From the NCBI GenBank assembly GCA_905221605.1, contig CAJNDS010000002.1, positions 553,501 to 617,500 of the forward strand: a stretch of DNA of 64,000 nt. The letters are read 5' to 3'. Positions 7,591 through 64,000 of the stretch are shown in pieces. The notes under the pieces were generated by a model, which saw only the letters and a program-made list of their open reading frames with translations, was not told where the DNA came from and made no database searches. Positions within the stretch are counted from its first letter, which is position 1, and every line of letters starts with the position of its first letter. Origin of the DNA: Symbiodinium natans (Eukaryota; Sar; Dinophyceae; Suessiales; Symbiodiniaceae). Made by a program: the position numbers and the translations under genes.

Positions 7591-8726
7591 GTTCCCTGGA
7601 AAGGGGGGGGGGAGGGCAACAGACTCCAACAATGACCCCTGAGCTCAGGATCCAGCAGTCAGGGTTCTATTCTGATTTTCTTACACAATAGGAATGCCAG
7701 GACTCTCTCAATGATAACAGGGATCCGACTTAAAACTGACCTGCTTACAGCCGAGATCAGTCCAGCTCTTCTAATTAACAACTCATCCAAGCTGTAGAAT
7801 ACTAATAAACAACTCACCTGACAGCCGCGATCAGTCTTTGGGCAGCTTGTAGATCTCCCGCACACAGATTTTTAGCCATTTGTGCTCTGCTGCACAGAGG
7901 GTTGTTTTGAGATAGGTCAGTTACATGTACTTTATAAGGCAGGTTATAAGTGGTCTAAAGGCACTTGTAACTCATTTAACTCAGGCACAAAGAGTTATAA
8001 GTTTGGCTCGAACTTGCATCCACATATACCTCTTTTACGGGACTTATGTATCTTTTTCGTATCTCCAAGATGAGATACACAAGGTACTTATAAGTACGGA
8101 AGGAAGATAGTAAAAAGTTATAAGTAGTTATAAGTCAGTTCTAAATGAGCAAAAAAAGGATAGGGAAAGATAGCCGGCACTTAGGTTTTCAGCAAAAATG
8201 GAGCAATAATCAGTATTAGCAGCATGCAGGAAAGGTGTTCTTGAAGGAGACGGGAACAAGAGGAAGTGGGTGTATATACATGTCTAGACCTTGTCATTCT
8301 CAACAACAACACGAAACTGAACCGGGGCGGGGGCGGGGGGGCAGGCCAAGAAATCATCATGCACATGCCTGGTTGCCTTTTTTCTTTCCCGGGAGAAAGC
8401 CTCCTCGGCTTACTCCAAGTCCAGTGCCAAGGTGCGCAAAACAGGCGTGAAGACCAACTAATACGTCTGTTTTGGGTTAGCAGGACTTATAGGACTTACT
8501 AACCTATGTACAAGTAGGGTCTAAGTCCTGCCTAAGCTACCTAAGAGTGACCTAAGTCTGTGGAAGTTGTGAAGAGGTTAAGAAATGTTACATAAGTTGC
8601 TAAGTTATGCTAACTTTTCTCAGTTTTGCCTAGCTTATCTAACTTTTCCTAACAGTTTCCTAACAATTTGGTGTGTTTATATATATATATATATTTTTTT
8701 TCATATGTTTGAAGATATAGCCTGGA

Positions 8727-8870
8727 AGCTTCGTTTCTTTCGTTTGGCATCGATCTCAATATGTCTGTCAGATATGGCATAGAAGCTTCGTTTCTTTCGT
8801 TTGGCATCGATCGCAATATGTCTGTCAGATATGGCATAGAAGCTTCGTTTCTTTCGTTTGGCATCGTTCG
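8727..8870. repeat. tandem 57-base repeat in left arm
   Basis: Two and a half units containing AGCTTCGTTTCTTTCGTTTG and ATATGTCTGTCAGATATGGC. The mirrored copy at 12660-12850 has an extra truncated unit, showing the arms have diverged by repeat-number change. Confidence 0.85.
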
Positions 8871-9417
8871 CCGAAGCTTTGGCGATTCAGTTTACTTCGT
8901 TCGTTTGAGGAATAGTGGTTTCCAGGGTTTGGGGTTTGGGATGTAGGTCTGGGGTTTAGGATTTAGGGTTGGGGGGTGAGGGTTGATGGAGAGTTGAGGA
9001 TATATAGGGTTTACGGTTACGAACTCAGGGTTTAGGATTTAAGGTTTAGGGTTGACTGGAGTGAGGCTCACAGCCCCAGCTCAGCCCTCAACCCTAACCC
9101 ACCCTATCAAGAGGATAGCACTTTTAACCCCATCAACCCCGAACACCCAGAGAAGCCTCAACCCCCAACCCTCCATCCCTCAACCCCCTACCCCCCATCA
9201 ACCCCCAACCCTACGAGCCAAAGTTTAGGGTTTCGGGTTTGAGGGTTTCAGGCCTCATTGTGCCCACTCTACCCTGCAAAAATATTTGGTTAAGGCCGAA
9301 ACCCTAAGCCTAAACCCTGAACCCTAAACCCTAAATCCTCAACCCTAAACCCCAAGCCCTAAGCCCTAAACCCACTAAACCCTCTAAACCCTAAGCCCTA
9401 AAACCCTAAACTCTAAA

Positions 9418-9508
9418 TTTGGTGGCAGCGAAACCAAAAACAGCTGCAAGTTAAATTCAACTTATTATTTAACTTGCAGCTGTTTTTGGTTTCGGGGCCA
9501 CCAAAAAA
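9418..9508. mobile_element. nested hairpin element in left arm
   Basis: Arms of about 38 bases (TTGGTGGCAGCGAAACCAAA...GCAAGTTAAAT and complement) around a short loop. The mirror copy is at 12014-12108. Confidence 0.75.
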
Positions 9509-10049
9509 TGTTGGGGACAGTGCCTGCGGGTGGGAATCAACGTTATAAAACCTATATTTGAGACGATTTAGAAGTTGAAGGACGACCCCATACGACATCT
9601 ACTGCAAGCTTAATAAACCCTAAACCCTAAACCCTAGACCCCAAAACCCTCAATCGAGCCCGACGACTCGAAATCCCAAACCGCGAAAAAATCAGAAAAT
9701 TCGGATTTTTTCTGAAATTTTCGTGGTCCTAGTACTAAATGCAAGAGGAAAAAATTCAGAAACTTCGGATTTTCTGAGTATTCTGAATTCTGAATGGGTT
9801 GATTTTCTTACGAGAAATATATGCATCTGAGGATGGTTTGGAGCTTTAAGTATATTGAACCTATGGATACAAAAGAGGTTTAAGTAAATTGCAGAAATAT
9901 AAAAGGAGAAAGAGTTCGGGACAAACCAAAGGGACATCAACTTCACTGGTGCAGTTATAGCGCAGCACAAAATTCGTTTCTTTGTTTCTGGTCTGCCCCT
10001 TCCTCAGAAAAGCTAACTTTTTCAAACTTGATGGATTTTGCTGGTCCGC

Positions 10050-10330
10050 GACTTTGATCCTAAACCCTAAGGCCTCTGCTGAGCGATTTTGATCCGATGG
10101 ATTTTGCTGCTGAGCGATTTTGATCCTACACCCCCTAAACCCTATGCTGAGCGATGCTGAGCCGATGGATTTTCCTGCTAAGCGATGTTGAGTCGATGGA
10201 TTTTGCTGCTCCGCGACTTTGATCCTAAACCCTAAACCCTCTGCTGAGCGAATTTGATCCGATGGATCTTGCTGCTGAGCGATTGTGAGCCTGAACCCTA
10301 AACCCTCTGCTGAGCGATTTTGATCCAAGG
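10050..10330. repeat. about 60-base tandem units with CCCTAAA inserts
   Basis: Units contain GATCCGATGGATTTTGCTGC and TGAGCGATTTTGATCC plus one or two CCCTAAA heptamers. Mirrored at 11196-11480. Confidence 0.75.
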
Positions 10331-22440: not shown

Positions 22441-22444
22441 AGGT

Positions 22445-22564
22445 CTACTAGGTTGCCAAGGAACCTAGGATTAAAAAAGACGCAATTTTTTTGCTTAGGG
22501 GGGTTTATAAGGGAACCGAAACCTCCCCAAAAAAGGAATAATGGGACTACTGGGCATCCTAGTC
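22445..22564. mobile_element. MITE family 2
   Basis: Left end CTACTAGGTTGCCAAGGAAC, core GGTTTATAAGGGAACC, right end CTACTGGGCATCCTAGTC; ends partly complementary. Related copies 30680-30796, 47877-47993, diverged 29780-29880, fragments 7247-7312 and 26483-26549. Confidence 0.75.
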
Positions 22565-22864
22565 TAGGGAAGGGTTTCGGGTTTTGACTTAGGGAAACTG
22601 TAAACCTAAGGCCTCCACAGCTCCCACGCAAGCGAAACGTGTCTGAGGCCATTTTTTAGAAGGAACTCCAAAACCAAAACAATTTACCCTACACCCTTCA
22701 ACTTACTTCTCCTATCACCACGGAATAAACAAGGCTGAACTTTGTTAGTGCTACTAAGTTTGGTACCCCGCAGGGTTTAAAGTTCAACTCAACCCGAAGC
22801 CCTAAACCCTACACCCTAAACTCCTAACCCCTAAACCCTCGAAGTAGGTCAACGCCCACACAAC

Positions 22865-22922
22865 TCTGCCTGGACCGCCAGGAGAGCAAGATCGATCGTA
22901 GCAGACCGTTCGAGCTTGCGGC
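22865..22922 (-). CDS. Sfi1-like repeat exon
   Basis: CTTCGCAG acceptor, 19 codons plus one base, GT donor. Reads AASSNGLLRSILLSWRSRQ: Leu -7, Leu -3, Trp, Arg. It starts in phase 0, matching the exon at 23381-23422. Confidence 0.6.
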
Positions 22923-22934
22923 CTGCGAAGGTGG

Positions 22935-23280
22935 GCTTAGGGTTTAGGGTTTTAGACGGCTTAACAGGGTTTTAGGGCTTTAGAGGGTTTTAAGGTTTAG
23001 GGTTTAGGGTCTTAGGGCTTAATCGGGTTTTAGGGGTTTAGGGTTTAGGGTTTTAGAGGGTTTTAGGGTTAAATAGGGTTTAGGGTTTTAGGTTTTTAGG
23101 GTTAGGGTCTAGGGTTCTAGGGTTTGAGGTTTTTAGGGTTCTAGGGTTTTAGAGGGTTTTAGGGTTTTGGGGTTTTGGGGTTCTTGGGTTTTTGGGTTTT
23201 AGGATGTACAGGGTTTAGTGTTTTAAGGTTTTAGAGTTTAGAAGGGTTTTTAGGTTTCGGGCTTAGGCAATGGGATTTCG
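22935..23280 (+). repeat. TTTTAGGG/TTTAGAGGG array
   Basis: Dominated by GGGTTTTAG-type octamers, a different local variant from neighbouring arrays. Confidence 0.9.
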
Positions 23281-23380
23281 GGTGCAAGGTGTAGGGAACC
23301 CTGAACCCTAAACCCTAAACCCTAAACCCTACCTAAACCCTAAACCCTAAACCCTCAACCCTAAACCCTATACCCTAAAC

Positions 23381-23422
23381 CCGAAACCAGTCCAGCGATG
23401 CCTGCAGCGCCAGCGCTGCCAC
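23381..23422 (-). CDS. short helical exon with Trp
   Basis: GGGCAG acceptor, exactly 14 codons VAALALQASLDWFR, donor CGG|GTTTAGGG created by the array. Phase 0 on both sides, matching its neighbours (23737-23807 upstream, 22865-22922 downstream). Confidence 0.5.
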
Positions 23423-23736
23423 CTGCCCAGTGTGGCTTGGGGTTTAGGGTTTAGGGTTTAGGGCGAGACCTTCAACTGCATGAGGATCCTGACTCAGGTC
23501 CTTCAAAACCCCACATTCAATAACCCCAAATTCACACAGGAGTGCCCCGTAAATTGCCTTCATTCGGCTCCTTAGAATGATGTATACGAATGATGCTTTC
23601 CACGGCATCCTCCCTTGTCAGGTTTCGGTAGAGTTTTGGGAGGCTGGCCCTAAACCCTAAATCCTATATAAACTCTAAACCCCAAACCCCAAACCCTAAA
23701 CCCGAAACCCTAAACCCTAAGCAAGGCAGAAACCAC

Positions 23737-23807
23737 CTGGCCATGCTGGCGGATCTGCATGCGACGGCGTCTCAACGCGAGAGCACCTGGTTCTGAACGA
23801 AGAAGCC
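23737..23807 (-). CDS. coiled-coil exon
   Basis: Reads LLRSEPGALALRRRRMQIRQ and ends CAG|GTGGTT (GT donor, phase 0). It starts with two bases of a split codon, fitting the single leftover base of the exon at 24061-24097. Confidence 0.5.
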
Positions 23808-24060
23808 CTTTGGAACCCAAACCCTAAACCCTAAACCCTAAACCCCAAACCTTAAATAAACCCTAAACCCCAGACGCATAGGAAAGAAAAGGCAGGGATT
23901 TCCTGAGCAACCCAAAGCCCTACATTCTTGTAGGCTGTTGTAACACTATATATCCCTCATCGGATTCTGAGAGCACCCACAAAAAGTTCGACTTTGGGGC
24001 TCTTAAGGCCGGGTTTAGGGTTTAGGGTTTAGGGTTTAGGGTTTAGATTTTGGGGCTTGC

Positions 24061-24097
24061 CCGATAATCGCCAAGGGTGAAGCTTGAGGGCTGAGGC
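24061..24097 (-). CDS. microexon with Trp
   Basis: Strong acceptor CTTCTTGTTCCCAG, then 12 codons plus one base, ASALKLHPWRLS, and a GC donor. Phases fit both neighbours. Confidence 0.45.
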
Positions 24098-24295
24098 CTG
24101 GGAACAAGAAGCAGGGGGCCCTGTTTTGGGCTTAGGGTTTAGGGTTTAGGGTTTAGGGTTTAGGGTTTAGGGTTTAGGGTTTAGGGGTCTGGAAGGGCAC
24201 AGAAACCCCGAAATAACGCAGACTGAAAGCTAACCTCCCCTGTACGAAGGCTGTTGTAAGGGTACTGCTGGGCATTGAGGCATTGGAGCCTAAAC

Positions 24296-24726
24296 CCCTA
24301 TGCCCCTAAACCTAAACCCTAAACCCTAAACCCTAAACCCTAAACCCTAACACCTAAACCCTAAACCCTAAGCCCAAACCCCAAAACCTTAAACATCAAA
24401 GCCCTACGAACCCCTGTGAAAACCTCGAACCTCAAGCTCTTGAATCGCAAGTGAGTGCGACTGAGACCCTAAACCCTAAACCCTAAACCCTCTAAACCCT
24501 AAACCCTAAACCCTAAACCCTAAACCCTAAACCCTAAACCCTAACACCTAAACCCTAAACCCTAAGCCCAAACCCCAAAACCTTAAACATCAAAGCCCTA
24601 CGAACCCCTGTGAAAACCTCGAACCTCAAGCTCTTGAATCGCAAGTGAGTGCGACTGAGACCCTAAACCCTAAACCCTAAACCCTCTAAACCCTAAACCC
24701 TAAACCCTAAACCCTAAACCCTAAAC
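24296..24726 (-). repeat. CCCTAAA arrays with a 194-base tandem duplication
   Basis: Units 24351-24544 and 24545-24730 appear identical over the non-telomeric part (CACCTAAACC...AAGCTCTTGAATCGCAAGTG). A very recent duplication. Confidence 0.9.
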
Positions 24727-24829
24727 TCCTCCAAGACGTCTGAGGCTGCGACTTTGCCAGGCCCAAAGCGCAGCCGCCGCCACGCCGCGTCTGCCACGCA
24801 GAGCCAAGGCGGCTGCTGCGGCTGCGCCC
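24727..24829 (-). CDS. Sfi1-like repeat exon
   Basis: ATGATCAG acceptor, donor GGAGGA|GTTTAGGG. Contains RGVAAAALWAWQSRSLRRLG: Leu -3 before the second Trp, then Arg-rich. It starts with one base of a split codon, matching two leftover bases of exon 25294-25396. Confidence 0.6.
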
Positions 24830-25149
24830 CTGATCATGGCGCGATTTTAGGGTTTAGGGTTTAGGGTTTAGGGTTTAGGGTTCTGGGTTCTGGGTTCAGG
24901 GTTTAGACCCTAAACCCTAAAGTACCCTAAGCCCTACACCCTGCAATTTAGGGTTTGGGGTTTACACCCGCAATTTAGGGTTTGGGGCTTCTGCATGCTT
25001 CACGCCTCCCGAAGTAAGGCTAACAATGGTGTCCGTGTACAGGAGATTCTACTACATATTAGGGGTATATAGGGGGGGCACGCCCTAAAAATTTTACTAA
25101 AAGCCCATGCAAGAATACTGGAAATATGAACTATCGCGAGGGCCTTAGC

Positions 25150-25290
25150 CCACAATCCCTAACCCTAACCCCCCCCAACCCCACAGAACCCCACAGAACC
25201 CTACAGAACCCTACAGAACCCTACAGAACCCTAAACCCTAAGCCCTAAGCCCTAAGCCCTAAACCCTAAACCCTAAACCCTAAACCCCCC
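25150..25290 (-). repeat. CCCTAAA / CCCTACAGAA array
   Basis: Includes five CCCTACAGAA decamers (25185-25235) before normal heptamers. TTTAGGG at 24846-24905 flanks the preceding exon. Confidence 0.9.
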
Positions 25291-25293
25291 AAC

Positions 25294-25396
25294 AAAAGCC
25301 CTCCCGGCCGTCGTAGAAGCAGCTCTCGCTCCCGGGCTGCAGCAGCCGTGGCTTGCTTGTGGCCCCGTGTGGTCAGGACTTCTTGGCGCCAGTCGC
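25294..25396 (-). CDS. coiled-coil exon
   Basis: Reads DWRQEVLTTRGHKQATAAAA and then RERELLLRRPGG. Acceptor CCCCGAG; donor GC, or GT at TTTT|GTTGGG, both leaving two bases. Starts with two bases that complete a Gly codon with exon 26362-26434. Confidence 0.55.
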
Positions 25397-25399
25397 CTC

Positions 25400-25810
25400 G
25401 GGGAGGGGTTTGGGGTTTAGGGTTTAGGGTTTGGGGTTTCGGGTTTCGGGTTTGGGGTTTGGGTTTAGGGTTTGGGGTTTGGTGTTTAGGGTTTGGGGTT
25501 TAGGGTTTGGGGTTTGGGGTTTGGGCTTTAGGGGGTTGAGGGGGTTTGGGGGGGTTTGGGGGGGTTTAGGGGGTTCAGGGGGGTTTAGGGAGATTTAGGG
25601 GTTTAGGATATCGGGTCTAAGGGAGTTAGGGGTTTAGGGGTTTAAGGGGTTTAAGCGGTTTAAGGGGTTTAAGCGGTTTAAGGGGTTTAAGGGGTTTAAG
25701 TGGTTTAAGGGGTTTAAGGGGCTCAAGGGGTTTAGGGGGTTAAGGGGTTTAAGGGGTCTAACGGGGTTTAGGGGGTTTAGGGGTTACGGGTTGTAGAGGT
25801 TTAGGGGCTG
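25400..25810 (+). repeat. TTTAGGG/TTTGGGG/TTTAAGGGG array
   Basis: Starts as TTTAGGG/TTTGGGG and passes into a homogeneous TTTAAGGGG nonamer block (about 25640-25760). Confidence 0.9.
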
Positions 25811-26110
25811 AGGGGTATAGACTCTATGGCGTGTCAGGACTTTTGGAAATAGAAGAGGCTTGAATTCGGGTCTCTGGTGCTGAAGGCTTTTTACTCGACC
25901 GGGGCTTATTGAATTTTGCCCCAGAGGGTGCGGGAAACAACGAGGCTTTAGGGTTCAGGGTTTAGGGTTTAGGGTTCGGAGTTTAGGGTTTGAGGGCGTA
26001 GGCTTTGAGGTTGTTCTGCCAGGCACGACTGGGAGCACCCCGGCCCGACCTGTCACTGTTTACACCAACGGCTTGGTGGCAATTCTGAGCAAATTTGTGG
26101 ATGATGATTT

Positions 26111-26205
26111 GGGATGTTCCCCTTATGCAGTCCTTAGTAGCGATTCTCGTACTCCCCTAATATAATCCCTATCAAGGACTGCTAGTAGAATAGGGGAACG
26201 TCCCA
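26111..26205. mobile_element. MITE family 1, complete
   Basis: TTTGGGATGTTCCCC and GGGGAACGTCCCAAA ends, with a second inner inverted pair (CAGTCCTTAGTAG / CTAGTAG...). Confidence 0.75.
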
Positions 26206-26299
26206 AAAAAATGTTGCAACAACAAAAACAACCCAGCTGCAGGAAACAAAAGCCCTAAATGTACGGTTGGCATGAAATACTACTAAAAAATGCACTTGT

Positions 26300-26648
26300 G
26301 GGAACCCTAAGCCCTAAGCCCTAAGCCCTAAGCCCTAAACCCTAAACCCTAAACCCTAAACCCTCAATCCTTCTCCCGCCCTGTAATTCCCCAGAGACAC
26401 TGAGCAGCCCGGTCGCCCAGAACAGTTGCCTGGGCTGAAAGGCTTCTCGGTTTAGGGTTTAGGGTCTAGGGTTTAGGGTTTAGGGTGGAACCCAGACCGG
26501 AAAAAAGGGGAGGGGGGGGGGGGAAGTAAGGGCCTACTCTGGGTCCTAAACCCTAAACCCCTAAACCCTAAACCCTAAACCCCTAAACCCTAAACCCCTA
26601 AACCCTGAACCCCTAAACCCTAAACCCTAAACCCTAAACCCTAAACCC
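26300..26648. repeat. CCCTAAA and TTTAGGG arrays around exon
   Basis: CCCTAAA 26303-26361 and 26548-26648, TTTAGGG 26449-26486, with a MITE family 2 right-end fragment and a G run at 26483-26549. Confidence 0.9.
26362..26434 (-). CDS. Sfi1-like repeat exon
   Basis: CCTTTCAG acceptor, phase 0. Reads PRQLFWATGLLSVSGELQGG and then RRIE; donor GAGG|GTTTAGGG from the array. Trp is present although the -3 residue is Gln, so this unit is atypical. Confidence 0.5.
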
Positions 26649-26762
26649 GGGCCTGTATGGGTGCATACTACTCCTCGTATGCGTTCAGGGTACAGATTTA
26701 AAAAAAAAAACTAGAATCGGTAGTGTTGGTCTATATTCTGGTGCTCTCTACACTACACCCCA

Positions 26763-27640
26763 TTTAGGGTTTGGGGTTTAGGGTTTAGGGTCTAGGGTCT
26801 AGGGTTTAGGGTTTGGGGTTTGGGGTTTAGGGTTTGGGGTTTGGGGTTTAGGGTTGAGGTTTAGAGGAGAGCAACAACGGCACATGGTTTCGCATAACTA
26901 TGTCTTACACCGCGCTGAGTTCGGAAGAACCCACACCTAAAGCAGGAACACCTGAATCCCGGACCCATCTACACCACAATGCCCGCACATCAGAAAGTCC
27001 TAGAAACGAAAAAGCGCCCATGCTGCAAAAGCCCAAGCAACCTAAGCGCCAAGAAAGCTCTCAAACCACACAAGCCCCAAGACCCTCTACCCTAAACCTG
27101 AAGCCCTCAGCCCTCAATCCTCCTAAGCCTCTGAGCCGCAAAGCAAGAAAGATCGCAAATCATCAAAAGCTCTTAAACACTGAGGCAGCGCACATCCTCT
27201 ATAGGGTTTAGGGTTTATAGGGTTTACAGGGTTTGTAGGGTTTATAGGGTTTATAGGGTTTCTAGGGTTTCTAGGGTTTCTAGGGTTCATGGGACTTCTA
27301 GAGTGGTTGCAGGGGTTTTTGTAGGTTTATGGGGCTTCTTATGGGGTTTACAGGGCTGATGGGGTCTTTGGGGCTTATCGCGTGTACCCCGTAACCCATT
27401 TCCTGTGCGGTCATCTCCCATACGAGTACCTCCTTAAGCAGTACACCCTCCAACCCCAATCCCACGACCCTATGAGCCCTCAACCCCCAACAGCCTAAAA
27501 ACTCAACCTGCCCCAAAACCTTCCAGCCTAAACCCTCGCCCCACCAACCCCCAAACCCTGAACCCTCAACCCTCAACCCTAAACCCTACACCCTAAACCC
27601 TCAACCCTATACTCCCCGTGTAGACAGAATCCATATGCTC
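26763..27640. other. decayed arrays, no supported gene
   Basis: TTTAGGG/TTTGGGG 26763-26860, GGGTTTATA-type runs 27204-27290 and CCCTAAA 27560-27610. The ORF at 26900-27211 is Lys/Pro-rich low complexity with no recognisable domain. Confidence 0.6.
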
Positions 27641-27645
27641 ACCTT

Positions 27646-27731
27646 GGGATGCTCCCCCTTATGCTACCAGTCCTCAACAGGAAGTATAATAATCCTACTA
27701 AGGACTGGTATAGTATGAGGGAATGCCTCCC
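27646..27731. mobile_element. MITE family 1, complete but diverged
   Basis: TTGGGATGCTCCCCCTTATG and the complementary GAGGGAATGCCTCCCAA end, with inner CCAGTCCTCA / AGGACTGG arms. Confidence 0.7.
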
Positions 27732-27924
27732 AATGGTCTCACTTCTTGAAAATATGGTCTCCTTTGGGGTTACGATGAATTATCAGGCAGCCCAGCAGCC
27801 CCCAACATCTACGGTACCCCAAACAAAGGCACCATCATTTTGAGAACTCACCAGATACGATCAAGGAAGACTGAATATATTAGAGGGGGAGGGGGACTAA
27901 ACCACTGCAACACCCCAAGTAATT

Positions 27925-28275
27925 CCTAAACCCCAAACCCCAACCCCGAACCCTAAACCCCAAATCCTAAACCCCAAACCCTAAACCCCACCCTAAACCC
28001 CAAACCCCAAACCCTAAACCCCAAACCCTAAATCCGTGCCTGCAGCGCCCGCGCGCTGCCGGCGGCCAGGGCCAGCGCGGCGGCTGCGCCCCGCTGAGCG
28101 AGCTGGGCGCCTTAGCTCTAGGGGTTGTATCTTGGACCCTTAAGGATGTGGTTTAGGGTTTAGGGTTTAGGGTTTAGGGTTTAGGGTTTAGGGTTTAGGG
28201 TTTAGGGTTGAGGCTTGAGGGTTGAGGGTTTAGGGTTTTGGGTTAGGGTTTAAGGTTTAGGGGTTTGGGGAACCG
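27925..28275. repeat. CCCTAAA array, exon, TTTAGGG array
   Basis: CCCTAAA/CCCCAAA at 27925-28035 and TTTAGGG at 28150-28270 around the exon 28040-28102. Confidence 0.9.
28040..28102 (-). CDS. Ala-rich helical exon
   Basis: Exactly 21 codons, phase 0 at both ends: GCCCAG acceptor, GC donor (CTGCAG|GCACGG). Reads LAQRGAAAALALAAGSARAL. Length equals exons 50123-50185 and 58704-58766 (63 bases). Confidence 0.45.
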
Positions 28276-28279
28276 GTTT

Positions 28280-28680
28280 CAAGATCCTTAATGTGGTACA
28301 AGAGCTATCCTGCACCCAAAGACCCCAAACCCAACTCTAAACTACCCCTCAAGCCTACGCCGCCCACCCTACACCTCATCAAACCCTAAGTAACTGAACT
28401 TACGCCTAAGAATGAATGCTAAGCTAACCTCATAACGGAAACCTGAACTGGAGCTAACAAAAACAAACTACCAGTATCCGTGGGGAAGTACAGGTGAACC
28501 TTTGGGATTATCTAGGGATATGATAATTACAAAAGTTAACGGATACCGTAAGGTTACCTGCTCTATTACAAAGATTGCAAACTGCAAGCCCTTAACTGAC
28601 CATTCACTAAGCCTAAAGCAACCCAAACCTCCAACCCTCAGGCCCTAAACCCTATAAAGCCTAGACCAGCCCTCAACATA
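28280..28680. other. unique sequence with one inverted-repeat element
   Basis: No gene seen. 28491-28560 has complementary ends CAGGTGAACCTT and AAGGTTACCTG around an AT-rich core, a probable MITE remnant. Confidence 0.5.
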
Positions 28681-29000
28681 TCTGCCCTAAACCCTAAACC
28701 CTAAACCCTAAACCCTAAACCCTAAACCCTAAACCCTAAACCCTAAACCCTAAACCCCAAGCCCTCTCTCAACCTTGCCCGGCTGCGCCGAAGGTCGCTC
28801 GCGGCCGCATGGCGCTTGCACCGGCCCTGGGAGGTGTGAGAGCTTCTAGGGTTTAGGGTTTAGGGCTAGGGTTTAGGGTTTAGGGTTTAGGTTTTAGGGT
28901 TTAGTTTTTAGGGTTTAGGGTTTAGGGTTTAGGGTTTAGGGTTTAGGGTTTAGGGTTTAGGGTCTAGGGTCTAGGGTTGAGGGTTTAGGGTCTAGAATTT
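28680..29000. repeat. CCCTAAA array, exon, TTTAGGG array
   Basis: CCCTAAA 28683-28758 and TTTAGGG 28848-28995 flank exon 28774-28826. Confidence 0.95.
28774..28826 (-). CDS. Arg-rich helical exon
   Basis: CTCCCAG acceptor (phase 0), donor GCAAG|GTTGAG. Reads GRCKRHAAASDLRRSRA. Phase 0 start fits the phase 0 end of exon 29338-29417. Confidence 0.5.
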
Positions 29001-29199
29001 AAGGTCCATTGTTTAGGGCTTCAGGCCTTCGGGTTTCCAAAAAGGGGTTCAGGGCTTGATTGTGGGTTTTGAGAATTCAAGGTGTCGGGCATTTTTCACT
29101 GTGCGTAGCAAGAAGATGGTGGGCACAGGGGGCCCAAACAAGCTTATATTCCAGGCTCAGACCTTTCAACTGTACTAGGCCCCTAAACACTCTTGGGCC

Positions 29200-29690
29200 T
29201 AAACCCTAAACCCTAAACCCTAAACCCCAAACCCCAAACCTAAACCCTCAACCCTCAACCCTAAACCCTACACCCTAAACCCTAAACCCTAAACCCTAAA
29301 CCCTAAACCCTGAACCCTGAACCCTAAACCCTACTACCAGCAAAGGCGCGTGCAAGCACACCTTGTGCCAGTAGAGCAGGATCGCCGCCTCCAAGGGCCG
29401 CCTTTGGCCAGCCTTGACTCAGCTTCCCCATGCTGGGGTTTAGGGTTTAGGGTTCAAGGTTCAGGGTTTAGGGTTTAGGGTTTAGGGCTAGGGTTTAGGG
29501 TTTAGGGTTTAGGGTTTAGGGTTTAGGGTTGAGGTTTGAGGGTTGAGGGTTGAGGACTGGGGTTTAGGGGTTTAGGGTTTGGGGTTTAGGGTTTTGGGTT
29601 TAGGGGTTTTGGTTGAGGGGTTTAGGGGTTTAGGGGTAGGGGGGTTAGGGGTTTAGGGTTTAGGATTTAGGCTTTAGGGTTTCTGGGGTT
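29200..29690. repeat. CCCTAAA array, exon, TTTAGGG array
   Basis: CCCTAAA 29202-29333; TTTAGGG 29438-29690 grading into TTTAGGGG. Between 29000 and 29200 nothing supportable. Confidence 0.95.
29338..29417 (-). CDS. Sfi1-like repeat exon
   Basis: Reads RRPLEAAILLYWHKVCLHAP: Leu -3, Trp, His-Lys. Donor GCTG|GTAGTAGGG, phase 0. Starts with two bases that fit the single base left by exon 30554-30638 if that exon uses its GTTTAGGG donor. Confidence 0.6.
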
Positions 29691-29779
29691 TAATTAACCA
29701 CAACCATCCCAGAGAGACTACAACCTCTAACCCTAAACCCGCAAAAACCTCTAATTGATCTCAGCTCCGTATTCACTTC

Positions 29780-29880
29780 TTGGTCGCCCAGTAACCATCT
29801 TGTAATAAGGGTGCCGTTTTTTGGTTGGTTACTTTATCAAGGAAACCCAGAACCCCAAAAAAGTGATGCTTCTGGTCTTC
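29780..29880. mobile_element. MITE family 2, diverged
   Basis: Shares GGTCGCCCAGTAACC, AAGGGTGCCGTTTTTTGG and AAGGAAACC...CCAAAAAA with the family; the right end is lost. Confidence 0.5.
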
Positions 29881-30074
29881 TCATCAAGGCGCTATATATG
29901 GTCAAACACTTCTTCGAACTTCAGTCCCCGCGCTCGAAAAAATCAGGCTCGGACGCCCCCCCCAAACAACGAAAGCAGCCCGAAACCCTAAACCCTAATC
30001 CCTAAACCCTAAACCTTGAAAATTGGTCCTCGCGAGCTGCTGCCGAGCAACTACCATCTTCGCTGCCGTGAGAC

Positions 30075-30473
30075 GTGTTGCCCTGGAAAGCCCAAGTTCG
30101 CACGATTTTGGGGGGCTCTACCTCTAAACCCGCAACCCTAAACCCTGACCTCGAAAGCCCTGGACACCAGCTCATGACAGGAAGAAGTTCCTCACCGCCA
30201 GAAGAAGGTTCGGAGAAGGTGTGGCTTGACCATGCTTATCTCTTGGGCCCCGAGATCCCGCCAAGACCTGCTCGTCTTACTGCCTCTCAGTACGGAATTC
30301 GCGGGGACTTTGCTCCAGAACATATACCTGGACATGTACGGAACCTCGTAAAACACTAACTCCCGACTCCAGGGACGCGCACTAAGCCTTGTCTGACTCT
30401 CCGTACGCTCAAGATGTTCCAAATCAACCACTCCTCTTCGGCCAGACATCGAACATGCCAAATCACACGACAT
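30075..30473. CDS. possible exon, strand unresolved
   Basis: Plus frame WLDHAYLLGPEIPPRPARLT (to a stop at 30357) and minus frame ELVFYEVPYMSRYMFWSKVP both look natural. No family recognised and no clear splice sites. Confidence 0.3.
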
Positions 30474-30553
30474 GGAAAAGGAAATAAATAGCCCTGAAAC
30501 CCTACCCTAAACCTTCTCAATTACCTGAAGGCCCTAAACCCTCTACCCTAAAC

Positions 30554-30638
30554 CCCGAATTTGCCGCCTGCGGCCGGAGGCCTCCCGGCGCCAGCACAGC
30601 ATCGTCTTGAGGAGCAGCAGACGCAGCATGGAACGCAG
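30554..30638 (-). CDS. Sfi1-like repeat exon
   Basis: Reads LRSMLRLLLLKTMLCWRREA and then SGRRRQIR: Leu -7, Met -3, Trp, Arg-Arg. Acceptor CCTCGAG, phase 0 (fits exon 33311-33388). Donor CGGG|GTTTAGGG made by the array, leaving one base, which fits exon 29338-29417. Confidence 0.65.
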
Positions 30639-30679
30639 CTCGAGGCCTCTTGGGCTTCACAGCTGGATTTCACCGTCTT

Positions 30680-30796
30680 CTAGGCTGCCCAGTAACCTAG
30701 GCTTAAAAAAGGGTGCCCTTTTTTGAGAAAAGGGGTCTATAAGGGAACCTAAACCCCCCCCAAAAAGGGAATAAGGGATCTACTGGGCATCCTAGT
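30680..30796. mobile_element. MITE family 2
   Basis: CTAGGCTGCCCAGTAACC ... GGTCTATAAGGGAACC ... CTACTGGGCATCCTAG; the outer ends are complementary over about 12 bases. Confidence 0.75.
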
Positions 30797-31174
30797 CTTT
30801 AGGGGTTTAGGGGCTCAGGATTTGGGCGTAGGGTTTAGGTTTAGGGTTAGGGTTTCGGGCACCTGAAACAACCTCAGATTTGTAAGTTACCGACTTACAA
30901 GTAACCTCAAAAAAGGGTAGGATTGTGGTTGTAAAGGTAGGTTTAGGCGCGTGTGGGGATGGGGCCTATAGGTGTCATGCTGTTTATACGCTTTAGGGTC
31001 TGGGTTTGAGGGCCCCCAAAAAGAGGAGGGAAGGGTGGGGGGGAGAGCGGGTTGGGTTTTGGCGTTTGTGCGGTCTTGTGGACAATCTGGAAGAAACGCC
31101 TTTGGACTCAAACTACTTTACATAGAGTCATATGGAATATGGATCATCAAGTTCAGGGAGGTGAACCCTACTGC

Positions 31175-31522
31175 GCCCTAAACCCTAAACCCTAAACCCT
31201 AAACCCTAAACCCTAAACCCTAAACCCTAAACCCTAAACCCTAAACCCTAAACCCTAAACCCTAAACCCTAAACCCTAAACCCACAGAACGGGCACATGT
31301 GTAGGAAACTGCAGTTTACTACGTGACACAAAGCCGAGCTTCGGTTCGCGATCTGGGCACCCCTTTGTCGCGCTGCGCGCCCGGATGCCGAAGCGGAAGC
31401 AGCCTCAAGAGGTTCTTCTTACTTGGGTTTAGGGTTTAGGGTTTAGGGTTTAGGGTTTAGGGTTTAGGGTTTAGGGTTTAGGGTTTAGGGTTTAGGGTTT
31501 AGGGTTTAGGGTTTAGGGTTTA
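31175..31522. repeat. perfect CCCTAAA and TTTAGGG arrays
   Basis: CCCTAAA 31175-31284 and TTTAGGG 31424-31522, both nearly perfect. The GC-rich island between them (31286-31423) has open minus (NLLRLLPLRHPGAQRDKG) and plus frames; probably an exon, frame unresolved. Confidence 0.95.
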
Positions 31523-31523
31523 G

Positions 31524-31972
31524 TATTGTACAGTATTGTACATTGAATATTATTGAACATTCATTCTTGTAGTTTTTTCATTCTTGTATACTCTTGTACA
31601 TTAGTGTGTATTGTGGCATTTTGAAAGCTATTAAATATATTATTGTATATTCTTGTGTGTTATTGAATAAAACTGTATAATTTAGTATTATTGTATCTTC
31701 TTATATATTATTGTATATGATTGTATATGACTGTATATGATTGTATATTGTTGTAAATTATTGTATATTATTGTACATTCTGGCATTCTTGAACATCATT
31801 GCATTATTGTCTTTTGTTTTCTTGCGTTTTATTGTATAAATTGCCGATCGTTGTATATTATTGGATATTATTGTCTATTTTAATATTCGTGTATATTACT
31901 GCATATTATTGTAGATTTTTTGATACTTTGTTGTCGATTATTATACATTACCCTATATGATTCTATATTATT
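31524..31972. repeat. AT-rich TTATTGTATA degenerate repeat
   Basis: About 450 bases of loosely repeated ATTGTATATTATTG, bounded on both sides by TTTAGGG arrays. Base composition is unlike the rest of the window. No coding frame. Confidence 0.85.
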
Positions 31973-32275
31973 AGGGTTTAGGGTTTAGGGTTTAGGGTTT
32001 AGGGCTTAGGGCTTAGGGCTTAGGAGTTATCGAGTTTAGGGTGTGGGCCCTCCCCCACCCCCACAGCATCCTGGTCTTCACAAAGGCACATTCTTAGGGT
32101 TTAGGGTTTGGGGCTTAGGGCTTTAGGGTTTGTGTTTAGAGCTAAAGAACGAACAGCCCACGGACCTAACCCTCCTGCGGGGCTTTTTGGTAGAGGTGGC
32201 TCAGAGGATTTAAGTTTAGGGCTTCAGGGTTTGGGGGTTAGGGCTGAAGGGTTTAGGGTTCGGAGTCTTTACATC

Positions 32276-32350
32276 ATTCGGTCTATGCGCAGGGTTAGAG
32301 CGCATGGCTGAGGAACCTTTGTCTGAGAGGGCCGGAGTTCTGCATTCTTG
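32276..32350 (+). other. tRNA-like sequence, possible SINE head
   Basis: GGTCTATGCGCAGGGTTAGA continuing GCGCATGGCTGAGGAACC resembles a tRNA D-arm (GCGC...GCGC) and anticodon arm, with a weak B-box-like GGAGTTCTGCATTC. No complete cloverleaf or paired acceptor stem, so probably a tRNA-derived repeat. Confidence 0.3.
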
Positions 32351-32617
32351 CGCTCGAGGGTTCATAAGTAGCTTGGGGTTTGCAAGGTTCGGGGTAAAAG
32401 CCCAAACCCGAAACCTCAAAACTCTAAAGACCCTGTGCTTACTACAGGGCTCACCAAACCACCATTGAAGGGGATACCCCAAACAGTCCCTACGACTTGG
32501 GTCTTAGATTCTCGAGGTTTAGGGTTGTAAAAACCTTCATCCCTATCAAAGTTTGGGGAGGGTTGGGGGGGGTGCCCGAGGTTTGAACCCAGTTCGCTTC
32601 CCTCTGCGCGCATGAAC

Positions 32618-32729
32618 CTTCATCGCGAACACTTGGCCGGCAGGGCACTTGGTCTGGCAAACAATGCCTTTGCCACCTTCGCCCAAGCTGCGACACCGTC
32701 GAGGAAGAGCCTTGCCAAGTGACTCCTTG
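32618..32729 (-). CDS. protein kinase exon (N-lobe)
   Basis: Minus exon with CRSLGEGGKGIVCQTKCPAG followed by QVFAMK: a glycine-rich loop (GxGxxGxV) and the beta-3 lysine at family-typical spacing. Acceptor TTTCAG, donor ATGAAG|GTTCAT. Only these subdomains are present; no catalytic loop or DFG exon was found nearby. The exon joins 32838-32923 in frame if the hairpin between them is removed. Confidence 0.6.
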
Positions 32730-32740
32730 CTGAAATTCTT

Positions 32741-32834
32741 CTACCAGGATGGGCTATTATACCCATAATCCCTGAAAAGGCCCTTCATAGGGTTCATTAT
32801 GGGGGTTGTAAGGCCTAATAGCCCATCCTGGTAG
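32741..32834 (-). mobile_element. hairpin element forming the kinase-gene intron
   Basis: Ends CTACCAGGATGGGCTATTAT and its complement match over about 22 bases with one or two changes. It lies between two exons of the kinase gene. A GA donor (AG|GATC) with the TTTCAG acceptor downstream restores frame. Introner-like. Confidence 0.65.
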
Positions 32835-32837
32835 ATC

Positions 32838-32923
32838 CTGCTCCAGGACTTCGTCTGCTGCGCCTGCTTCCACTGCTGCGCCTTGGGCGGCCGCCGACGC
32901 CGCAACGATTCTTGTGAAGGAGC
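32838..32923 (-). CDS. exon upstream of kinase exon
   Basis: CGTAAG acceptor, reads APSQESLRRRRPPKAQQWKQ and then AQQTKSWS. Basic, probably a linker before the kinase domain. It ends in phase 2, matching the C|AAG start of 32618-32729. Confidence 0.5.
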
Positions 32924-33235
32924 CTTACGTAGGTTATATACCACAACTGAGTTTGCGGTTCAGGGCTTATAGTTAGGGTTTGGACATGAAAAGGACGCCC
33001 CATAACAACAACCCATAATCCACCAGTTGCGTATGAACGCCTCCCCAAAAAAAACAAAATATGTGCTCGTCCTTCAAGGCATTTGTTCCTTGGGGGGGGG
33101 GGGGTTCTTAAGCAAAAAAGCAGCAATAGGCTTCGGGGTCGGGGTTTCATAAGTTGTTCTCCTGACCGGGCGTCATGGTCAAGAATCTGGCGCCCATCTT
33201 CTGGAAACGTCCTACAAATTCCTGGAACAGGCACC

Positions 33236-33475
33236 CCAAACCCTAAACCCTAAACCCTAAACCCTAAACCCTAAACGACCCTAAACCCTAAACCCTAAGC
33301 CCTGAAATACATCGACTGCTGCACTGGCCTGCTTGCGCAAGTGGCGTTGGGTGGCCGCCGCACGCTGCCACAAGCCGAGAATGGAGGCCTGGTAGGGTTC
33401 AGGGTTTAGGGTTTAGGGTTTAGGGTTTAGGGTTTAGGGTTTAGGGTTCAGGGTTTAGGGTTTAGGGTGTTTTAG
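33236..33475. repeat. CCCTAAA array, exon, TTTAGGG array
   Basis: CCCTAAA 33236-33302 and TTTAGGG 33396-33475. Further TTTAGGG arrays at 33678-33795 and 33925-34070, the latter about 17 near-perfect units. Confidence 0.95.
33311..33388 (-). CDS. Sfi1-like repeat exon
   Basis: CTACCAG acceptor, exactly 26 codons, donor GAT|GTATTT; phase 0 at both ends. Reads ASILGLWQRAAATQRHLRKQ and then ASAAVD: Leu -3, Trp, Gln-Arg. Same 78-base length as exon 49607-49684. Confidence 0.65.
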
Positions 33476-34262
33476 GGCTCGGGCTTACGAGAAATAACCC
33501 TATATACAACCTATACCCCTGTAACACCATCAGCCCATAACCCTCTACGTAACCCTGTGGGCCCTATCACACTAAAGCGACCTGGATCCCTGATCCCTGA
33601 ACCCCTCAGAGTTCAGGCCACGGCTATTTCTAGAGGTCACGGGTCTGGAAGTGTAGGTTGCAAAGGAGTTACGGCAAGGGTTTAGGGTGTAGGGTTTAGG
33701 GTTTAGGGTTTAGGGTTTAGGGTTTAGGGTCCAGGGTCTAGGGTCTAGGGTCTAGGGTTTAGGGTTTAGGGTTTAGGGTTTAGGGGTTTAGGGTTTCCTA
33801 AATGGGTTTGGTCATGTTAGAGGGGAACTTTGAACCACGAAAGGGGCAAAAGGGTGCCACAAAGTTCCAAAACTCTGCCCTGCCCGACCAGGCCCAGGGG
33901 ACCAGAAACTTGTAAATTATTAGCGTTTAGGGTTTAGGGTTTGGGGTTTAGGGTTAGGGTTTAGGGTTTAGGGTTTAGGGTTTAGGGTTTAGGGTTTAGG
34001 GTTTAGGGTTTAGGGTTTAGGGTTTAGGGTTTAGGGTTTAGGGTTTAGGGTTTAGGGTTTAGGGTTTAGTACGAAGCGGTAGGCTTTGGGCTCGTGAGGC
34101 AAACCCTAACAAGCTTAAACCTTGGTAACTCTGCACCCTGTGAACCCTCCTAAACCCTAAGCCCCAAGCAAAAAGCGCTAAACCCTAACCCCCTTAAACC
34201 CCGAACCCCAAAAACCCAAGACCCCAAAACCCCAAAACCCCTAGACCCTAAACCCTAAACCC

Positions 34263-36865: not shown

Positions 36866-37755
36866 CTGAAGATCTGGCGATAATCGGACCCTCCGAGCTC
36901 CTGGTGTGCTGGAATTTAGGAGCTCAGGATCATGGTGAGGTGCTTTGTCGTTCACTTACATTGCAAAGCTGAAGTTTTGCAGCAAAGGGTCTCAGCCAGA
37001 ATCAGAAGCTGATGAGCAACAGGGGCCACGTAGGGGCGATGGCTCTGAAAGGCTCCCAAACCCTAAAGACCGAAGCTGTTTGCAAGTGCCCCTCAGGCTG
37101 TACATGTGTATGTGTCTGTTCTATTTCCTGTCTGATGCTTCAGGAGGTCGACTGCGTTTTTTGTGAAGTCCAGAGTTTTGCCTCTCGCAAGTCGGACAAT
37201 GCAGGCTGTACAGGTTAGAGGTACATGTTGAGACATGTCCACACGCCATGTCCTGTCATGATGTCATAACTTGCCATGATCTGAAAATCGGGCCGAACAA
37301 CAATCAAGCAGTGCTCCCACCAGCCATGCAAACTTCCACGAGGAAAGGACAGACGCAGCATTGCACTTGTGCCTCGGTCGCGACCATGAGCTCGAACGGA
37401 AGTCGATTCGGACCTGCAAACAGTAAACCACACTACCTTCACAAACTCATGACAAAACTCAACAATGTGGCTCAGCATCTGAATTCAAGGCCGGCTGATG
37501 ATGGCCACACAGAGGATGAGTGTGTGCGTGTGTGTGTGTGTGCGCTCATGTCTGCGTGGAAGAACAACAACGATGAAACAATGATGCCCCCCATGACCCC
37601 CACGACGACTGCACCACCACCACTGCCCCCCCACATCCCAAATGACCGAAACTGATCAAACGATGATCACTCCAAACAAAGGTCACCCTGGTCTAGGGTC
37701 ACCCTTTGCACTTCCCGATTTTTTCTTGAACAACACTTTTTTTGAGTAAAGTGAC

Positions 37756-38160
37756 TTCTCTCGCGGCGTGGGGGCGCACAGCATCTTAGAAAAGCCACTT
37801 TTCTCGAAAAGGCATTTTTCTCGAAAAGCAACTTTTCTCGAAAAAACACTTTTTGCAAAAAGTGACTTTCTGGCGACGGGGGGTGCGCAGCGTGCGCGAA
37901 AAGTCACTTTTCCCGAAAAGCCACTTTTCTCGAAAAGCAACTTTTTGCGAAAAGGGACTTTTCTCGCGACGTTGGCCCGCGCAGCGTCCGCGAAAAGCCA
38001 CTTTTGTAGAAAAGCCACTTTTCTCGAAAAAACACTTTTTACGAAAAGTGACTTTGCTCGCGACGTTGGAGCGTGCAGCATCCGCGAAAAGCCGCTTTTA
38101 TAGAAATATAGAAAAGCCACTTTTCTCGAAAATCCACTTTTTGCGAAAAGCAACTTTTCT
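37756..38160. repeat. four-unit satellite of palindromic subunits
   Basis: Higher-order units of about 90-110 bases starting CTCGCGACGTTGG...GCGCAGCGTCCGCG, each followed by four to five copies of CACTTTTCTCGAAAAG, itself nearly palindromic. Open frames on both strands (KSGFSRKVAF) are repeat artefacts. Confidence 0.9.
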
Positions 38161-43377: not shown

Positions 43378-43824
43378 TTAGGGTTTAGGGTTTAGGGTCC
43401 ATCTTTCAATAACTGATATGAGGTTGGCACGAGACAAAATCCTTGGTGGAACCAGGATAGTACGCCTCACCTTGGCGCGGAACTTATCGCTCAAGGGGGC
43501 GTGTAAGAATGCCTTCCGAATGTCCAACATCGCTGAAGCCCATTCTTCAAGGGCTGATTGCCCCAGCCGAATCCGTAGTGCAATCGAATCCAACCCTGAA
43601 GCATACACGTCCTTTCGAGAAAGAACATTGGGCTGGTCGGTCATCTCACCGTCCGCATTCTTCTTTTGGATATTGCCACAAGCAACGATCCTCGCCCGCC
43701 TCTTGCCAACAAGAGGTTTCCTGGTAAATACAACTTTAGCTGGCACAATCTCCATGGCGCAGTTCTTAATGTCTTCCTCACATAACTCGGGTGGATTATG
43801 GCGATTATAAGGCCTAGTAGCCAC
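43378..43824 (-). pseudogene. Ty1/copia reverse transcriptase fragment
   Basis: Minus ORF with KVVFTRKPLVGKRRARIVAC then MLDIRKAFLHAPL, the entry to the copia-type RT domain and the first catalytic Asp region (xDIRKAFLHAP). It stops being RT-like at a conserved Trp and continues directly into CCCTAAA repeats (translated as LNPKP). The YxDD motif, integrase, RNase H and LTRs are absent, so a short relic. Confidence 0.75.
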
Positions 43825-47470: not shown

Positions 47471-47876
47471 GCTTAGGTTTCCGGGTCGTATTTGCTTTTC
47501 TTTTTTCGGTTGGTTATTCCCATTTTGTCTGGGTAGGGTTGAGGTTAGGGTTTCGGGTCAGGCCAGGGCTTAGGAATCTGGATTTTTGTTGAAAATGTAA
47601 AGCGTCTAGGGTTTGGGTTGGGGGCCGTGCTGTCTGAAAATACTCATGACTAAAACCCTCTTGAACCTGAGCAGGGAACGTATGAGAAATCCCTAGGGTT
47701 AGATCCACGCCCGGGCAGCCATTGGATCAAGAACCATGTGAAGTAAGGTTTACATTGCCAGTCTCACCAGCCCTAAACCCTAAACCCTAAACCCTAAACC
47801 CTAAACCCTAAACCCTAAACCCCGGCATTTTCAGTCGCCAGCATCCCTAGGGAGCCCAATATTCACCAAAACCCTA

Positions 47877-47993
47877 CCTAGCTTGCCCAGCAACCTGGGA
47901 TTGAAAAAGGGCGCCCTGTTTTGCTTAAAGGGGTTTATAAGGCAACCTGAAGACCTAAAAAGGGGAGTAAAGGGCACTACTTGGCATCCTAGT
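47877..47993. mobile_element. MITE family 2
   Basis: CCTAGCTTGCCCAGCAACCT ... GGTTTATAAGGCAACC ... CTACTTGGCATCCTAG. It lies inside an otherwise open minus frame (47831-48049), so it may be a recent insertion or intron. Confidence 0.7.
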
Positions 47994-62699: not shown

Positions 62700-64000
62700 A
62701 GAAAATCCCAAGCCTGAATTATCTTGAAAAACCGTTTTCTCATGGCTTCTAAGAGTATCCCTGTTCGGCCCCTGGCCCACCCGATTAATTCGCAGCCCTC
62801 GATTAATGCGGGCCTCGGCCCGGGAACCTTTAAACAAGCCAGCTCCAAGCTTCGAGCCTCCAAAGCAAGCAGCAGCAGCCACAAAATTCCAAAATCCCAA
62901 GCCTTCCGGAACAGATGGTTTTGAATTGAAAATCTATCTAGAAAAACCATTTTCCCAAGGTTTCTAAGGTATCCCTTTTCGGCCCCTGACCCACCCGATT
63001 AATTCGTGGCCCTCGATTAATGCGGGCCTCGGCCTGGGAACCTTGAAAAAAGGCAGCTCCAAGCTTCGGGTCTCCAAAGCAAGCAAGCAGCAGTCACAAA
63101 ATTCCAAGCCTTCAGGAACAGATGGTTTTGAATTGAAAATTTATCTAGAAAAACCATTTTCCCAAGGTTTCTAAGGGTATCCCTTTTCGGCCCCTAGCCT
63201 ACCCGATTAATTCGTGGCCCTCGATTAATGCGGGCCTCGGCCTGAGAACCTTTAAAAAAGCTAGCTCCAAGCTTCGGGTCTCCAAAGCAAGCAGCAGCCC
63301 CAAAATTACAAAATTCCAGGCCTTCAGGAACAGATAATTTTGAATTGAAAATCCATCTACAAAACCATTTTCTTAATGTTTCTAAGGATATCCCTTTTCG
63401 GCCTCGACTAATGCGGGCCTCGGCCCGGGAACCTTTAAACAAGCCAGCTCCAAGCTTCGAGCCTCCAAAGCAAGCAGCAGCCCCAAAATTACAAAATTCC
63501 AAGCCTTCAGGAACAGATAATTTTGTGAAAATCCATCTAAAAAACCATTTTCTCAATGTTTCTAAGGATATCCCTTTTCGGCCTCGATTAATGCGGGCCT
63601 CGGCCTGGGAACCTTGAAAAAAGGCAGCTCCAAGCTTCGGGTCTCCAAAGCAAGCAAGCAGCAGTCACAAAATTCCAAAATCCCAAGCCTTCAGGAACAG
63701 ATGGTTTTGAATTGAAAATCTATCTAGAAAAACCATTTTCTCAAGGTTTCTAAGGGTATCCCTTTTCGGCCCCTAGCCCACCCGATTAATTCGTGGCCCT
63801 CGATTAATGCGGGCCTCGGCCTGAGAACCTTTAAAAAAGGCAGCTCCAAGCTTCGGGTCTCCAAAGCAAGCAAGCAGCAGCCACAAAATTCCAAAATCCC
63901 AAGCCTTCAGGAACAGATGGTTTTTAATTCAAAATCTATCTAGAAAAACCATTTTCCCAAGGTTTCTAAGGGTATCCCTTTTCGGCCCCTGGCCCACCCG
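62700..64000. repeat. satellite array, period about 180-220 bases, runs off the window
   Basis: Seven starts of AAAAACCATTTTC (about 62727, 62941, 63150, 63357, 63539, 63728, 63949). Units contain GATTAATTCGTGGCCCTCGA, GCGGGCCTCGGCCTGGGAAC and AGCTCCAAGCTTCGGGTCTC. Two units (63357, 63539) lack the same segment of about 28 bases around CCCACCCGATTAATTCG. Minus ORFs here are repeat-encoded. Confidence 0.95.

Follow-up and report, generated by a model that had tools for sequence, protein, structure and literature searches.

Telomeric repeat arrays tend to face outward around exon-sized intervals in Symbiodinium natans and may mark a class of introner-like introns

The stretch of DNA analysed here (the window) comprises 64,000 nucleotides of the dinoflagellate Symbiodinium natans (contig CAJNDS010000002.1, positions 553,501 to 617,500 of the forward strand) and is rich in short tandem arrays of the telomeric heptamer. 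Counting as an array any run of at least two exact heptamers, we found 189 arrays, 103 of them TTTAGGG (G arrays) and 86 CCCTAAA (C arrays), and with one mismatch per unit allowed these covered 21% of the window. Neighbouring arrays 80–170 bp apart stood in the order C-then-G 33 times and G-then-C 11 times, with 15 G-G and eight C-C intervals, and none of 10,000 shuffles of orientation among the arrays reached the observed excess of C-G over G-C; the same classes numbered 11, 3, 4 and 3, respectively, at 22700-33600, close to the region 22865..33475 on which an earlier note on this DNA had centred. The C-then-G intervals (hereafter islands) were short (median 127 bp) and rich in GC (0.60), and the G-then-C intervals longer (median 314 bp, GC 0.50). 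The earlier note had held that exons are flanked by CCCTAAA on the low-coordinate side and TTTAGGG on the high side. This is correct as a tendency, both in the window and in the genome sample described below (74 against 16), but not as a rule, because about half of the exon-sized intervals in the window (33/67) obey it. The outward polarity of the arrays in the window is a genuine tendency and no fixed rule.

Peptides from 11 islands of the window (minus strand, one hand-chosen frame each, six of the 11 within 22865..33475) matched no Pfam family, and in a search of the whole genome all 11 matched the window itself and no relatives. The coding signal of the islands was modest, with a median z of 0.74 against 0.14–0.33 in other intervals, and by mean z the G-G intervals came close to them (1.00 against 1.13); the codon model was rejected for the window islands since its signal does not suffice to call exons or to assign a strand. 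A tRNA scan and an Rfam search at gathering thresholds gave no matches.

The arrays are abundant throughout the 759-Mb assembly (2543 contigs), which contained 853,942 forward and 852,709 reverse matches to (TTTAGGG)x4, about 1.7 million with overlapping matches counted, against 21 and 10 for a control. Arrays occur in mid-contig stretches, and as tandem telomere-type repeats at non-terminal positions, away from chromosome ends, they are interstitial telomeric sequences, a kind of repeat that to our knowledge has no usual link to exons. As expected of a dinoflagellate, the 21-base spliced leader of this group matched the genome 205 times, compared with 0 matches for the reversed control. Six spliced-leader matches lie on one strand at C479:102078-129887, with four of the five spacings at about 3.8 kb, an arrangement resembling a tandem cluster. 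Array coverage ranged from 0 to 32%, with a mean of about 14% (one mismatch per unit allowed), over 19 usable stretches of 10 kb; 20 had been taken, of which one was all N, and the sampling was not strictly random, one stretch beginning at a known array and the others at round coordinates on contigs with spliced-leader matches. Three of the sampled stretches (L006, L012 and L017; GC 0.54–0.56) lacked any two-unit array, so that the genome appears to be divided between regions rich in arrays and regions free of them.

The polarity seen in the window recurred in these stretches, where intervals of 80–170 bp comprised 74 C-G, 16 G-C, 32 G-G and 24 C-C, about half of them obeying the rule, and the C-G excess was reached in none of 10,000 shuffles. 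Interval length quartiles were 107/125/163 bp for C-G and 172/292/551 bp for G-C. Genome-wide, a pattern of two units, a gap of 100–130 bases and two further units gave 194,914 C-G against 60,787 G-C matches, and the same pattern with a gap of 300–330 bases gave nearly equal numbers (143,516 and 134,098); matches overlap inside arrays, and these figures are not counts of loci. Because it is strong at 100–130 bases and nearly absent at 300–330, the bias is bound to exon size. Viral contigs had no match to either the C-G or the G-C pattern at 100–130 bp.

Exons identified independently of the arrays were obtained by Pfam searches of the genome, with 98 matches for kinesin and 37 for dynein. Flanks were read for 54 kinesin and 18 dynein exons (72), picked before the arrays had been seen and with mostly longer matches left out. 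Of the arrays lying nearest to an exon, at a distance of up to 200 nt, those upstream were C for 13 exons and G for six, and those downstream were G for 13 and C for two, so that 26 of 34 nearest arrays had the predicted orientation (p 0.0015), including 15 of 17 at dynein exons. Heptamers in kinesin flanks numbered 54 C and 18 G upstream and 26 G and seven C downstream; the dynein figures were 87 C and nine G, and 53 G and four C. No tandem pair of units lay within 220 nt of 49 of the 72 exons, and the flanks of these, unlike those of the 23 exons with arrays, did not differ in skew between the two sides (p 0.76). The polarity is therefore a property of the arrays and not of introns generally, which rules out a general intron skew as its cause. 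Well-matched dynein exons sit inside C-then-G islands. Judged by two proxies, the Pfam-matched exons and the spacing counts, array orientation relative to exons, a comparison that the earlier note had proposed for the whole genome, is not random.

Eleven introns were placed in three dynein genes (C1971, C96 and C1812) using as query a dynein paralogue contained in one open frame (L083). Seven exons were placed on matches with an E value of about 1e-4 or lower and others on weaker ones (E between 0.005 and 1.9), whereas three short exons, one per gene, were positioned by eye on the basis of colinearity and known dynein sequence. Nine of the 11 introns contain both array types, and the order G-then-C holds in seven when single units are counted and in six when only arrays of two or more are used. 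Counting single units, all four introns of C1971 and two of the three of C96 have 4–12 arrays each, with the G arrays all placed ahead of the C arrays; the third C96 intron has C arrays only. Over the 11 introns the excess of G-before-C pairs was reached in 0 of 100,000 within-intron permutations, although C1812 alone shows no excess. The C blocks are the longer in C1971 and C96 together (48 G against 211 C heptamers) and the shorter in C1812 (46 G against 15 C). The proposed order of TTTAGGG repeats first and CCCTAAA repeats last is seen in seven placed introns, one of them in C1812 by a single C unit, but not in C1812 as a whole or in the one-sided introns.

The donors of the placed introns are AG/GC, AG/GA, G/GT and similar (the slash marks the predicted splice point) and the acceptors AG/G. 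In all 11 introns the first array unit begins 7–58 nt inside the donor and the last ends 22–128 nt before the acceptor, and in one intron array units (arrays considered only) lie no further than 30 nt from either end. Given an organism with a spliced leader and G[C/A/T]...AG borders at homology-matched exons, these are putatively spliceosomal introns. Ordinary sites lie outside the arrays, and array-supplied splice sites are ruled out for the placed introns; the arrays are neighbours of the predicted splice sites, not the splice sites themselves. The use of G/GTTTAG as donor, as suggested in the earlier note, can accordingly be set aside for these introns. Five of the six donors that it listed do read GGTTTAG, the exception being 24727, but this string is the repeat itself and occurs 1170 times in the window, counting both strands. 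Direct repeats of 3–5 nt were found at the junctions of eight of the 11 introns, a count that may be raised by the placing of the junctions to fit AG/G and protein continuity, a choice that favours direct repeats.

Our preferred reading, held tentatively and at somewhat less than an even chance, is that a large class of introns in this genome consists of introner-like introns with telomeric inverted repeats at their ends. It is based on the polarity, on the association of this polarity with exon-sized intervals across the genome and on its occurrence around dynein exons. Each such intron would have begun as, or been converted by, one insertion ended by inverted telomeric repeats, leaving blocks of TTTAGGG within the intron towards the donor and blocks of CCCTAAA towards the acceptor; the blocks would later have changed length independently, with mutation and further insertions splitting them into several arrays, and splicing would proceed via the ordinary AG/G[C/A/T]...AG/G sites placed by homology outside the arrays. 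A single array-ended insertion, later broken up, would account for the strict order in most of the introns placed in C1971 and C96, where no C array comes ahead of a G array. Since the polarity depends on the arrays, and since the switch from G to C happens once in an intron although its arrays are many, the best fit appears to be inverted telomeric blocks present at both ends from the start.

Several observations weigh against introner-like introns of this kind. The placing of the junctions followed protein continuity and AG/G rather than transcripts, and for several exons the match is weak or the position was judged by eye. C1812 breaks the rule, having one intron with G arrays only, one with C-then-G order, one mixed, and one that is G-then-C by virtue of a single C unit. 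Kinesin exons taken separately give a weak result (11 of 17 nearest arrays in the predicted orientation, p 0.17). The unit counts of paired arrays are not coupled, with rho -0.01 for G-C and 0.11 for C-G pairs (n=107 for each). Lastly, with the arrays masked, no element family shared between arrays was found on comparing the window and the 19 sampled stretches, and across this material the introns do not share one sequence family, as many introns made by introner transposable elements do; masked repeats of 110 bp or more were mainly local duplications and families of 110–125 bp not tied to array ends.

A close rival, which we regard as possible though rather unlikely, is that telomeric repeats insert either way round and that selection retains those placements that do not harm splicing. 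CCCUAAA lacks AG and has a CUAAA core, which would suit the region upstream of an acceptor, whereas UUUAGGG contains UUUAG/G, a ready false acceptor, and would be tolerated only further upstream, where G triplets may also help the donor. One-sided introns and unequal, uncorrelated block lengths are accounted for in this way, as is the absence of G arrays after C arrays in two genes, and in several introns YAG is rare downstream of the C unit that comes first, although the arrays themselves are partly responsible for that. Selection of this kind fits poorly with intron Ia of C1812, a G-only intron whose last TTTAGGG lies 39 nt from the acceptor, and with the six G arrays among the 19 nearest upstream arrays. 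It also gives weak reason for polarity on the donor side, where this is if anything stronger (13/15), and the array-free flanks lack any such skew.

We consider it unlikely that the arrays pair in the pre-mRNA and so draw donor and acceptor together, as the earlier note had proposed. Pairing of the blocks is possible in the nine introns where both are present, though the introner-like reading does not need it, and hairpins have been proposed for inverted-repeat introns of Amoebophrya in the part of that report consulted (PMC7789003). Folding of the six G-then-C introns in C1971 and C96 predicted an end-to-end path that was shorter than in a half-flipped control in four and equal in two; for these the folding check that the earlier note had suggested leans towards pairing, but over all 11 introns it is mixed (five shorter, three equal, three longer), and the control had the lower energy per base in five of the 11. 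The missing coupling of block lengths, the very unequal sides (9 against 69 and 11 against 60 heptamers), the G-only and C-only introns and the 49 of 72 Pfam-matched exons with no array near all speak against the claim that array pairing joins the splice sites. We give a similarly low probability to a broader proposal, that exons are capped by outward telomeric arrays whose polarity the cell uses to define introns or exons, through RNA duplexes, splicing signals based on the telomere repeat or telomere-type chromatin.

Healing of breaks is a slightly less probable origin: telomerase would extend both ends of an intronic break, and rejoining would always yield TTTAGGG followed by CCCTAAA. Head-to-head (G-C) junctions with a gap of 0–12 nt do outnumber tail-to-tail (C-G) ones (2245 against 739 matches), but the general polarity shows about the same ratio, such direct junctions are rare compared with some 1.7 million (TTTAGGG)x4 matches, and the two blocks typically lie about 300 bases apart; direct telomere fusion as a general cause is rejected, the few 0–12 nt junctions being unable to carry the polarity. 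That the islands are mostly non-exonic, with the polarity arising from another element or a chromatin feature, would agree with their modest coding signal, the similar mean of G-G intervals and the 11 peptides without relatives found, but is very improbable given the well-matched dynein exons that occupy such islands.

Introns with inverted repeats are already known from dinoflagellates, and the long telomeric arrays in that place are apparently new, as far as the published accounts consulted in part extend. Introners of Amoebophrya and Prorocentrum cordatum have inverted repeats at both intron ends, and their junctions carry short direct repeats (PMC7789003, PMC10666404), membership being defined by inverted repeats that lie no more than 30 nt from either end (PMC10666404). 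The introns described here resemble them in their complementary ends and may do so in short junction direct repeats. The repeats of those introners measure 8–20 nt, whereas those in S. natans are long, degenerate telomeric arrays, unequal and several to an intron; the TTTAGGG or TTTGGGG repeats mentioned in the available part of the Amoebophrya paper are at scaffold ends (PMC7789003). Introners of Symbiodinium microadriaticum carry terminal inverted repeats and target-site duplications, and some gain a splice site from the duplicated target (PMC9860276). The introns proposed here would likewise be intron-making insertions with terminal inverted repeats, but the S. microadriaticum introners form sequence families, whereas no family shared between arrays was found in the window and sampled stretches of S. 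natans. Interstitial telomeric sequences elsewhere are the topic of PMC6410037, and fluorescence in situ hybridisation in Karenia showed interstitial telomeric signals to be rare (PMC6395649, in the text available), in contrast to about 14% of sampled DNA, oriented to exons, in S. natans. Nonconventional introns of euglenids also have their ends brought together by complementary sequence (PMC4770533), pairing that is only proposed here, but their borders are variable and non-canonical according to the portion of that report seen, whereas the placed introns start with GC, GA or GT and end with AG, at hand-set AG/GN...AG junctions. No description of telomeric arrays as intron ends was found among the listed papers of the open-licence literature, judged mostly by titles and abstract openings.

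Table 1. Telomeric arrays and C-then-G islands at 22836..33477 of the window.
Feature	Position	Strand	Remark
C-then-G island, candidate exon	22836..22942		
CCCTAAA array	23306..23379	-	7 units
C-then-G island, candidate exon	23380..23442		
TTTAGGG array	23443..23463	+	3 units
C-then-G island, candidate exon	23868..24013		
CCCTAAA array	24661..24725	-	8 units
C-then-G island, candidate exon	24726..24845		GC 0.70
TTTAGGG array	24846..24880	+	5 units
C-then-G island, candidate exon	25285..25415		
CCCTAAA array	26333..26360	-	4 units
C-then-G island, candidate exon	26361..26450		+ strand right edge AAAG/GCTTCTCGGTTTAGGG, resembling the homology-placed GC donor of a dynein gene
TTTAGGG array	26451..26485	+	4 units
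C-then-G island, doubtful exon	26646..26762		low GC (0.45)
C-then-G island, candidate exon	28033..28151		
CCCTAAA array	28685..28754	-	10 units
C-then-G island, candidate exon	28755..28851		
TTTAGGG array	28852..29018	+	15 units
CCCTAAA array	29259..29328	-	7 units
C-then-G island, candidate exon	29329..29438		
TTTAGGG array	29439..29528	+	10 units
Longer C-then-G island	30553..30797		also with copy of 120-bp repeat family
CCCTAAA array	31176..31280	-	15 units
C-then-G island, candidate exon	31281..31427		
TTTAGGG array	31428..31518	+	13 units
CCCTAAA array	33241..33292	-	7 units
C-then-G island, candidate exon	33293..33404		
TTTAGGG array	33405..33477	+	9 units

A repeat family of about 120 bp, with copies about 78–88% alike, lies among the arrays at 22443-22564, 30675-30797 and 47874-47993 and also in the sampled stretch L019. 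By eye we noted a short palindromic element starting near GGGATGTTCCCC at 26109-26205 and 27644-27735, present also in an array-free kinesin intron in L027, and AT-rich TATTGTATATT-like repeats at 31519-31976, between two TTTAGGG arrays. Elsewhere in the window there is a large inverted duplication at 8457-13090, whose matched pieces are 89–99.6% identical and both of whose arms carry 57-bp tandem repeats and telomeric arrays, and a tandem repeat with a period of about 214 bases at 62717-64000, which reaches the window end and contains an open frame of repeated peptides. Further open frames resemble a copia-type reverse transcriptase (43378-43824, minus strand; RVT_2, E 7e-4, below the curated cut-off), consist of KSGFSRKV-like repeat units with a weak, below-cut-off match to the histone H1-like HC2 (37683-38153, minus strand), or are mostly a Phe-Pro-Pro repeat (56287-56658, plus strand).

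If the arrangement of arrays around exons holds on transcripts, and if the sample is typical, about one seventh of a dinoflagellate genome would be telomere-like repeat arranged around exons. Telomere repeats would then be linked to intron gain or to intron definition, and the genome would provide a natural experiment on whether complementarity between the ends of an intron helps splicing. It would also call for caution before a run of TTTAGGG in an assembly of this kind is taken for a chromosome end.

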